Positions 54,165 through 63,230 of a stretch of DNA of 64,000 nucleotides are shown piece after piece. A model generated the notes under the pieces. It searched no databases. It was given only the letters and a program-made list of their open reading frames with translations, and was not told where the DNA came from. Positions within the stretch are counted from its first letter, which is position 1, and every line of letters starts with the position of its first letter. A program made the translations under genes and the position numbers. Source of the DNA: Pseudomonas sp. LFM046 (GTDB lineage: Bacteria > Pseudomonadota > Gammaproteobacteria > Pseudomonadales > Pseudomonadaceae); NCBI RefSeq assembly GCF_000949385.2, contig NZ_JYKO02000001.1, positions 2,008,620 through 2,072,619 on the forward strand, in the 5' to 3' direction.

Positions 54165-54704
54165 CTAGGGCAAGGCCAGCGGCAATAGTCGAGCGGTATT
54201 GCGGGCATCTTCCAGGGCGCGATGTTGCTGGCCCTGGAAATTCAGGCCGGCCAATTGCAGCGCGGCATGCAGTCCCACGGCGCGCCTGAGCTGGCGCGCT
54301 TCGGCAAAGCGCTGCTTGAGATTCAGGTGAGGCACGGCGGCCAGCAGGCTGTCCAGGCCGTGCATCCGCCACTCCTGTTCCAGTTGTCGGCGATCGTAGT
54401 CACCCCAACTGGCCCAGCCCACCAGACGCGGGCTATGGTGGCCGAGCCAGCGCTCGAAGGCCGGCCAGACCTGGGGCAGGTTTGCGGCACCGTCCACATC
54501 CGCCTGGCTGATATGAGTGAGCTGGCGGCAGAAACCGGTCAGGCAGGGCCGTCGTACCGGCCGCACGAAACGCTGGAAATGGTCCACCTCATGACCATCC
54601 GCACGCACCAGCGATGCACCGATCTCGATGATTTCCATTTCCTCCAGGGGCCAGCCACCTTCTTCGGTGGTGGCTTCCAGGTCGATGACCAGCCAGTGGG
54701 GCAT
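54165..54704 (-). CDS. DEDDh-family 3'-5' exonuclease
   Basis: 179 residues. The four acidic residues and histidine of the DEDDh family are visible: VIDLEATT (DxE), GWASWGDYD (D), and HRALEDARNTA (H-x4-D). The close relatives (KapD/ERI-1-like) act on RNA or DNA 3' ends. AAGGAG precedes the ATG at 54704, so the longer frame to 54737 is not used. It is divergent from the dehydrogenase gene. The physiological substrate is not known. Confidence 0.9.
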   Translation of the reverse strand: MPHWLVIDLEATTEEGGWPLEEMEIIEIGASLVRADGHEVDHFQRFVRPVRRPCLTGFCRQLTHISQADVDGAANLPQVWPAFERWLGHHSPRLVGWASWGDYDRRQLEQEWRMHGLDSLLAAVPHLNLKQRFAEARQLRRAVGLHAALQLAGLNFQGQQHRALEDARNTARLLPLALP

Positions 54705-54815
54705 GCGAATCTCCTTGGCAACGAACGGTCCAGCCACGAGCGAGTATGGTGGCGCTTTCGCGGGGCGGCAAACTGCGTGTTAGGCTTTTCCGCAGGTCGA
54801 CGAAGGAGAACAACA

Positions 54816-55688
54816 ATGGCTGAAGTAGCGTTCATCGGTCTGGGGGTGATGGGCTTCAACATGGCTGGGCACCTGGCCTGCGAAGGGCATTCGGTGCGGG
54901 TCTACAACCGTTCGGCCGCCAAGGCTGAGCTCTGGTGCGACGAGTTCGGCGGTGATGCCTTCCCCACTCCGCGAGAGGCGGCGGCAGGGGCGGAGTTCGT
55001 GATGGTCTGCGTCGGCAATGACGACGACTTGCGCGCCGTGCTTCTGGGGGCGGATGGCGCCTTCGCCGGCATGGCGCCCGGTTCGATCCTGGTGGACCAC
55101 ACCACGGCGTCGGCGGATGTGGCTCGGGAAATGGCGGTCCTGGCCGCCGAGCGTGAACTGGGCTTCCTTGATGCGCCGGTTTCTGGCGGTCAGGCAGGGG
55201 CTGAAGCGGGCATGCTGTCGGTGATGGTGGGGGGCGAGCAGGCGTTCTTTGACCGGGCGGCTCCGGTGATCGACAGCTACGCCAAGATGACCCGCCGCAT
55301 GGGCCCTGTCGGCAGCGGGCAGTTGACCAAGATGGTCAACCAGATCTGCGTCGGCGGCTTATTGCAAGGGCTCGCCGAGGCGCTGCATTTTGCCCAGTGC
55401 GCCGGACTGGACGCCCAGGCCGCCATGGAGGTGATCAGCAAGGGGGCGGCCCAGTCCTGGCAGCAGGAGCATCGCCACCAGACCATGCTGGAGGGCCAAT
55501 TCGATTTCGGCTTTGCCGTGGACTGGATGCGCAAGGACCTGTCCATCGTGCTGGATGAGGCTGCGCGCAATGGCGCGCAATTGCCGGTGACGGCGCTGGT
55601 GGACCAGTTCTATGCGGAGGTCCAGGCCATGGGGGGCGGGCGCTGGGATACCTCAAGCCTGATCGCACGGCTGAAAAAGCCGGCATAG
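54816..55688 (+). CDS. NAD(P)-dependent beta-hydroxyacid dehydrogenase family protein
   Basis: 290 residues of the 3-hydroxyisobutyrate/tartronate semialdehyde reductase family. The N-terminal Rossmann motif is VAFIGLGVMGFNMAGHL, the substrate-loop DAPVSGGQAGAEAGMLSVMVGG follows, and the catalytic lysine lies in SGQLTKMVNQI. A GAAGGAGAA ribosome-binding site fixes the start at 54816. No valine-catabolic or glyoxylate gene is adjacent, so the substrate is open. It converges with a small DMT-family gene across the nested palindrome at 55703-55823. Confidence 0.88.
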   Translation: MAEVAFIGLGVMGFNMAGHLACEGHSVRVYNRSAAKAELWCDEFGGDAFPTPREAAAGAEFVMVCVGNDDDLRAVLLGADGAFAGMAPGSILVDHTTASADVAREMAVLAAERELGFLDAPVSGGQAGAEAGMLSVMVGGEQAFFDRAAPVIDSYAKMTRRMGPVGSGQLTKMVNQICVGGLLQGLAEALHFAQCAGLDAQAAMEVISKGAAQSWQQEHRHQTMLEGQFDFGFAVDWMRKDLSIVLDEAARNGAQLPVTALVDQFYAEVQAMGGGRWDTSSLIARLKKPA

Positions 55689-55702
55689 CAGGTACGCGAG
55701 GA

Positions 55703-55823
55703 CTAGGCGTCCCTGAGCTAAGACCAGGCTAGGCGGAAAGCGGGGAGAAGGCGGAGTTGACGACCGTCAATGAGCATTCGAGCCGATTTCCAACAACGCC
55801 TGGTCGACGATCAGGTCGCCTAG
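55703..55823. other. Nested palindromic element filling a convergent gap
   Basis: Four sets of arms pair in order: CTAGGCG/CGCCTAG (55703-55709, 55817-55823), ACCAGGC/GCCTGGT (55723-55729, 55798-55804), GGAAA-CGG/CCG-TTTCC (55735-55743, 55783-55791) and TTGAC/GTCAA (55757-55761, 55766-55770). The outer right arm includes the stop codon of the DMT-family gene. It could be a structured RNA, an unusual terminator or a small repeat element; no T tract is present. Confidence 0.6.
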
Positions 55824-56161
55824 CTGCGGAAAATGAAGTAGACGGCGCCCAGCAGGCAAAACCCCGCCCACAGATAGTCCAGCTTCAGCGGCTGCTGCAT
55901 GTAGAGCACGCTGAAGGGGACGAATACGGCCAGGGTCACCACTTCCTGCATGATCTTCAGCTGGCCGACCGAGAGCTCCGTGTAGCCGATTCGGTTGGCC
56001 GGCACCATGATCATGTATTCGAACAGGGCAATGCCCCAGCTGACCAGTGCAGCAATCACCCAGGGTTTGGTGTTGAGGGTCTTCAGGTGCCCATACCAGG
56101 CGAACGTCATGAAGATGTTGGACAGGGTGAGTAAGGTGGCGGTCTGCATCCAGACGGGCAT
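55820..56161 (-). CDS. DMT-family small membrane protein (DUF486)
   Basis: 113 residues with four hydrophobic helices, including LLTLSNIFMTFAWYGHLK near the N-terminus and AGFCLLGAVYFIFRS at the end. It matches the short single-unit DUF486 group of the drug/metabolite transporter superfamily, which must act as oligomers. The ATG at 56161 leaves a short N-terminus; the longer frame to 56194 has no better site. Substrate unknown. It is divergent from the GH31-like gene with 71 bp between. Confidence 0.85.
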   Translation of the reverse strand: MPVWMQTATLLTLSNIFMTFAWYGHLKTLNTKPWVIAALVSWGIALFEYMIMVPANRIGYTELSVGQLKIMQEVVTLAVFVPFSVLYMQQPLKLDYLWAGFCLLGAVYFIFRS

Positions 56162-56232
56162 GGTGGGAGAGTCTCTGTTGAGAGGGGGGCGCAAGCCTAA
56201 TGGGTCCTGATTCTCAAGGAAAGGGGCGGTTC

Positions 56233-63011: not shown

Positions 63012-63041
63012 CTGCGGTACCGGCCTTGGTCGGTACCGCAG
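63012..63041. other. Hairpin between sdhB and sucA
   Basis: CTGCGGTACCG (63012-63022) and CGGTACCGCAG (63031-63041) form an 11-bp perfect stem with an 8-nt loop; no T tract. It could protect the sdh mRNA while allowing read-through to sucA. About 50 bp later is an AT-rich block (63083-63099) that may hold a separate sucA promoter. Confidence 0.55.
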
Positions 63042-63230
63042 TAAAACCAGGAACGCAGCCCACAAAGCCGTGTTCCTTATTGAAAAAATATATATAGATG
63101 ACCAGCAGGGGCAACCGGGCTGGTGCCCGGACTATCTGCGGGATCCTTGGTGGCTTCAGTCGCTGTGCCAGGACTTCTTAGCCCTATTGGTTCCATGCCG
63201 GTAGTGTCCCCTTATCGAGGGTGACAAAGC

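Follow-up and report, generated by a model that had tools for sequence, protein, structure and literature searches.

The question raised by this locus is what a long nested palindrome is doing between two convergent genes in the 64,000-nucleotide stretch of the Pseudomonas sp. LFM046 genome analyzed here (the window). The initial annotation, made from the letters alone, had offered three answers: a structured RNA, a small transposable repeat, or a chromosome-organizing site. Inspection of the sequence placed an imperfect palindrome at 55703-55823 with all four named arm pairs where they had been reported; a fifth pair, CCTGA/TCAGG, had been overlooked, giving five tiers rather than four (Table 1). 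The flanking genes are convergent, as described, and end at 55688 (+) and 55820 (-); the right arm does reach into the stop codon of the DMT-family gene. The listed start of the other gene, at 54222, is probably too far upstream.

Both strands were folded, as had been proposed. When the region 55690-55840 was compared with dinucleotide shuffles, the plus strand folded at -65.0 kcal/mol (shuffles -46.8 +/- 4.2, z -4.3) and the minus strand at -59.5 kcal/mol (z -4.8), and no shuffle equalled the native sequence on either strand. No terminator-like or promoter-like site was found at the palindrome. The terminator scan found no terminator-like T tract, in agreement with the view that this is not a standard terminator.

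Table 1. Features of the palindrome and its surroundings, in window positions.
Feature	Position	Strand	Basis or remark
Arm pair 1, CTAGGCG / CGCCTAG	55703-55709 / 55817-55823		
Arm pair 2, CCTGA / TCAGG	~55712-55716 / ~55811-55815		Fifth tier, newly found
Arm pair 3, ACCAGGC / GCCTGGT	55723-55729 / 55798-55804		
Arm pair 4, GGAAAGCGG / CCGATTTCC	55735-55743 / 55783-55791		
Arm pair 5, TTGAC / GTCAA	55757-55761 / 55766-55770		
3-hydroxyisobutyrate / 6-phosphogluconate dehydrogenase-type gene, convergent	54222-55688	+	PF03446 and PF14833, residues 202-482 of listed ORF
Left TA of target-site duplication, inside CTAG	55704-55705		Sequence; TA on both sides in 9/10 type A copies elsewhere; single CTAG at G012 orthologous locus
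Element proper, 115 bp, read in GGAG..TGA direction	55706-55820	+	Ends GGCG/CGCC between two TA; covariance model R1, 109.6 bits at G000:C1:2064323-2064442
5' outer stems CTAGGCG, CCTGA, ACCAGGC	55703-55729	+	Fold
Conserved internal-loop motif TAGGCG (family AAGGC block)	55730-55735	+	Alignment A4, columns 2-5 at or near invariance
Inner 5' stems GGAAAGCGG and GAAGGC	55735-55752	+	Fold
Conserved GGAG, opposite TGA (internal loop)	55753-55756	+	Invariant or nearly so in alignments A1, A4, A6
Apical hairpin TTGAC-GACC-GTCAA	55757-55770	+	Fold; middle pair G-C, U-A or A-U among copies
Conserved TGAGC, opposite GGAG	55771-55775	+	Invariant in alignment A1
Inner 3' stems and GAG loop	55776-55791	+	Fold
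Conserved AACAACG block (family AACGC), opposite AAGGC	55792-55798	+	Alignment
3' outer stems GCCTGGT, TCAGG, CGCCTAG	55798-55823	+	Fold
Right TA duplication	55821-55822		Overlaps DUF486 TAG stop 55820-55822 (-); G012 has same stop/CTAG without element
DUF486/DMT_6 gene, stop codon in duplication	55820-56194	-	PF04342, E 4.9e-46
sucA-II RNA family match (side observation)	63012-63227	+	Rfam, 146.6 bits, E 2e-33

The palindrome is one member of a large family. A first search covered 12 other genomes of the genus and returned similar DNA in all of them. A covariance model built from 27 copies (R1) then identified eight strong and three to four weak copies in this genome. By this model, each of the 18 genomes searched in the genus has 9-62 copies; R1 also matches 81 of 100 genomes at family level and 89 of 274 at class level. 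The motif that the initial annotation linked to other pseudomonads, GGAG-TTnAC-n-GTnAA-TGAGCATT, is real: it occurs exactly twice in this genome and recurs in many relatives. Among the matches listed, named genomes with the exact core pattern belong to Pseudomonas, Halomonas and its relatives, Shewanella, Vibrio, Nitrosomonadales, Mariprofundales, and Bacteroidetes, the last including Alistipes, Tannerellaceae, and Prevotellaceae. R1 confirms most of these over their full length, with lower scores in Bacteroidetes; many of the Bacteroidetes entries are metagenome bins, but several entries have a sequence style and ends of their own. A BLAST search of plasmids with the element returned nothing useful. 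On the reverse strand of the core (55757-55778), many copies read ATGCTCATTTAC, the reverse complement of TGAGCATT..GTAAA.

Some copies are arranged or interrupted in unusual ways. Tandem clusters of two to three copies 120-180 bp apart are present in Mariprofundales, Shewanella, and another bin (L098, L101, L117, L161). In five loci (L095, L100, L127, L130, L194), other DNA, its ends resembling TGA(C/T)TCGCT..CGCTCGCCC..GGGCC, interrupts one arm, and a short piece like TGACCGGGCTGGCGnTCCAGCC sits at the same arm position in L150, L157, L194, L196, and L198. The element may itself be a target of a second mobile element.

The family is organized around a conserved core of about 70 nt that forms a single hairpin: AAGGC, stem, GGAG, stem-loop-stem, TGA, stem, AACGC. 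Testing the alignments for compensatory changes, as had been suggested, revealed an abundance of double changes that keep pairing. Of the 33 pairs in the alignment of 27 copies, 25 include double changes of this kind. The covariation score there reaches 0.507; shuffles score 0.186 and slid pairings no more than 0.125. A set of 35 more diverse cores scores 0.589, compared to a maximum of 0.154. From Pseudomonas to Bacteroidetes, the internal-loop blocks AAGGC/AACGC and GGAG/TGA hardly vary. As the stems vary freely provided that they pair and the loops are fixed, these sequence comparisons argue for recognition of a folded single strand, either RNA or DNA.

The outer ends behave differently from the core. 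Aligned ends fall into at least six kinds, two of which (types A and B) could be tied to an insertion sequence (IS). Type A ends (GGnTCTGTACGAAAAGTC) have TA on both sides in nine of ten copies. Of 40 copies with type B ends (GA[AG]CCTGTTCACGATC), 17 are flanked by TNA at both ends, with identical duplicates in 15 of the 17; after related loci were collapsed, identical duplications numbered 14 of 19 (p 1e-5 against an expectation of 1/4). One genome (G043) contains several near-identical copies of equal score in which the match stops at TA on both sides, and these represent recent spread.

Searching for type A ends without the core revealed an IS of about 912 bp, complete in G043 and G026; a protein search brought to light another of this length in G032, along with shorter derivatives in G028. 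In G043, G026, and G032, the ends read TA followed by GGTTCTGTACGAAAAGTC. The gene of this IS is split in two frames, and its products match DUF4096 and DDE_Tnp_1 as well as an NCBIfam model of the IS5 family. The corresponding search for type B ends recovered an 833-bp IS in G107 with perfect ends, TGA-GAGCCTGTTCACGATC..GATCGTGAACAGGCTC-TGA, the product of which likewise contains DUF4096 and DDE_Tnp_1. Subgroups of the IS5 family differ in the target they duplicate, which may be TA, TNA, or YTAR, and the TA and TNA duplications observed here fit two such subgroups. Several of the type A derivatives in G028 (L302-L304, L315) are 616 bp long and have longer perfect inverted ends with TAGGCTCTGTACGAAAAATCCGAGCGAGTA on both sides.

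The IS and the element have their ends alone in common. Since their inner sequences are unrelated, the element is not a simple deletion derivative of the IS. Furthermore, ends and cores do not travel together. Two copies in the same genome (L334 and L336, G281) have an inner identity of 0.88 and share four of 16 end bases; likewise, a type B copy (L358) and a type A copy (L377) have an inner identity of 0.88 and share six of 16, and in both pairs the likeness of the ends is no better than chance. Near-identical cores with unrelated ends indicate that the ends change while the core stays. In G028, type A-like and type B-like copies are found together with the IS for the type A-like ends.

At the window locus itself, the copy reads TA-GGCG...CGCC-TA inside CTAG. 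In G012, no element is present at the orthologous locus, where one CTAG precedes the DUF486 gene and the stop codon is unchanged; the left flank aligns poorly there. Across 16 genomes with the DUF486 gene, the element is present at this locus in nine and absent from seven. Two sequence classes, 72-77% alike, occupy the locus in different species, and thus its history may not be one of a single insertion followed by descent. The G011 copy at this locus and another in that genome are 95% alike, so that re-insertion or conversion may have occurred. At moderate divergence, double changes are as frequent between copies at the same locus as between loci; this could reflect selection at the locus, re-insertion, or conversion. 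We had considered that mobile copies alone keep the structure, in contrast to those at a resident locus, and dropped this proposal because within-locus pairs also show double changes. In G006 (C1:2352293-2356927), an insertion of about 4.3 kb splits the DUF486 gene adjoining the element.

On the basis of these data, the palindrome is very probably a non-autonomous miniature inverted-repeat transposable element (MITE), of a family with a conserved hairpin core and IS5-family terminal repeats, that would have been moved in trans by an IS5 transposase; the copy in the window is a resident one and probably no longer mobile. The element is short (115 bp), multi-copy, and free of coding genes, and has both target-site duplications (TA, TNA) and an empty orthologous site (G012). 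Types A and B also share their ends with an autonomous element, as is expected of a MITE. The ends of the window copy are too short for this: at 115 bp, compared to about 140 bp, it is without the GTACGAAAAG portion of type A ends. Its own genome yielded no close type A transposase. The last 15-20 bp of the outer stems would be terminal inverted repeats belonging to an IS5-family IS, and a transposase supplied in trans would recognize them. Insertion would occur at the transposase's own target, which would be duplicated: TA (in CTAG or TTAG) for one end type and TNA for another. Mobility or retention of the element may depend on the core fold, which would explain why the fold is maintained.

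Of the three original proposals, the small transposable repeat has the support of its copy number, the duplicated targets, the empty orthologous site, and the matching IS5-family ends. The structured strand is also supported, by the compensatory changes, whether as RNA or DNA. Nothing points to a chromosome-organizing site. It is also conceivable, though we lean against it, that the core is an independent and ancient parasitic hairpin, spread horizontally from Bacteroidetes to Gammaproteobacteria and including the enterobacterial repeat ERIC, and that this hairpin repeatedly swaps its terminal repeats so as to be moved by whichever IS5-family transposase the host has. The folded strand would then have a conserved activity of its own, such as a putative binding site for a widespread host factor, that enables the swaps.

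Genomic context was assessed at 145 loci collapsed by flank similarity, and bears on whether the hairpin instead acts in the 3' regions of mRNA, as a stability element, RNase site, or terminator, and is kept for that purpose with mobility being secondary. This is unlikely in our assessment, although the strong covariation with fixed internal loops speaks for it. Read in the GGAG..TGA direction, the element opposes tandem flanking genes at 65 independent loci and runs along them at 32 (p 0.001); a first count of 45:9 shrank to this ratio when more, independent loci were included. This bias favors a role in RNA, but it also means that the mRNA usually carries the reverse complement rather than the GA-rich strand, which folds better here. 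ERIC, which shares the core, is reported to alter mRNA stability in Yersinia in an orientation-dependent manner (PMC2229807). In contrast, presence at the window locus is patchy, and no Rfam family matches the element at gathering score. Placement provides no further support: with 25/97/13 convergent, tandem, and divergent gaps, convergent placement is not significantly above background (22/130/28, p 0.13), and the candidate preference for convergent genes was set aside in this set. A tail-to-tail bias is reported for P. fluorescens repeats in general in a 2009 paper (PMC2718517). Special targeting of stop codons was also rejected. Exact placement at a stop codon was counted for 21 of the 36 type B loci, compared to 17.6 expected (p 0.08); such placement is common because there are few TNA sites in short intergenic gaps.

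Hairpin-templated mutation, in which quasi-palindrome correction rather than selection keeps the arms paired, could produce the double changes seen between copies at one locus. It should also erase mismatched loops, but the GGAG/TGA and AAGGC/AACGC loops hardly vary between phyla, and we consider it quite improbable. A GGAG directly 5' of a short hairpin is a feature of REP sequences, and the same arrangement in this element invites comparison with REP or REPIN elements moved by a RAYT (tyrosine) transposase. The element forms one nested hairpin rather than two inverted REPs, however, and its TA and TNA duplications and DDE (IS5) partners contradict this origin, which is very improbable. Finally, a long stem between convergent genes could suggest an ordinary bidirectional terminator. 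We give this next to no credence: the T tract of an intrinsic terminator is absent, most copies lie between tandem genes, and a dispersed multi-copy family with a conserved core contradicts it. A MITE with IS5-family ends remains our preferred interpretation.

Similar repeats have been recorded previously. The R178 intergenic repeat of Pseudomonas fluorescens is 101 bp long with 61.9% G+C and an internal 11-bp inverted repeat, and has 18, 28, and 9 copies in strains SBW25, Pf0-1, and Pf-5 (PMC2718517). Its size, copy number, and central repeat fit the element, as judged by its description. R178 is likely to be an earlier sighting, tabulated but uncharacterized, with no transposase or target site given in the accessible part of that paper. 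Ppu-9 of P. putida KT2440 (124 bp, 57 copies; PMC2267715) is similar in length and copy number, again by description, and is possibly another. IS5-family IS agree with the element in their terminal 15-18 bp and target duplications, and differ in that the element has no transposase gene and an unrelated inner sequence. RUP of Streptococcus pneumoniae, a 107-bp MITE ascribed to IS630-Spn1 (PMC2229807), resembles the element by description in its small size, IS ends, and TA target, but involves another IS family.

Both ERIC and the element form one long hairpin with TA at either end. Known since about 1990, ERIC repeats serve for strain typing throughout the world. The E. coli repeat contains the ordered motifs of the element, AAGGCG..GGAG-CTTAC-ATAA-GTAAG-TGA..AACGC, a pattern with no match in 20 Mb of random sequence (both strands) and found in 48 kb of E. 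coli K-12 only at ERIC. The R1 model did not recognize ERIC, giving only 10 bits and reaching only its central 21 nt, and R2 gave 18.9-22.4 bits. A third model (R3) drew on 36 cores, none of them enterobacterial; among these are a Colwellia and a Pseudomonas copy whose centers are more like that of ERIC. Over the 48 kb of K-12, ERIC was its best match (28.9 bits, E 1e-4; next E 0.21). These E-values are rough, and R3 was built after the likeness was noticed. K-12 served as the control, and a 50-kb E. coli O157 stretch (L366) that holds prophage effector genes was left out. Over the whole 127-bp ERIC consensus, the element differs in its outer sequence and ends, and the 3'-side stem of ERIC is shorter. 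The element hence shares the core of ERIC, namely the central GGAG-hairpin-TGA with AAGGC/AACGC flanks, and is not filed as ERIC; judging from sequence, the two cores are likely to have a common descent or a common function.

These comparisons have implications for how such repeats are annotated. No paper found in the open-access literature searched describes the common core, its IS5-family ends, or a connection with ERIC; this is weak evidence given that subscription papers fell outside the search. What appears to be new is one structured core with swappable IS5 ends and a link to ERIC. The family is also a case of a mobile element with a structure-held core and changing ends. Standard annotation of MITEs by their ends would split this family into unrelated ones, whereas annotation by the core would unite it. 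In the literature, ERIC (also IRU or RU-1) is a 127-bp MITE of enterobacteria and Vibrio with TA ends; the review that describes it assigns no mobilizing transposase and does not describe a relation to Pseudomonas repeats (PMC2229807). If ERIC belongs to a superfamily with members that have IS5-family ends, both its origin and its mover become testable.
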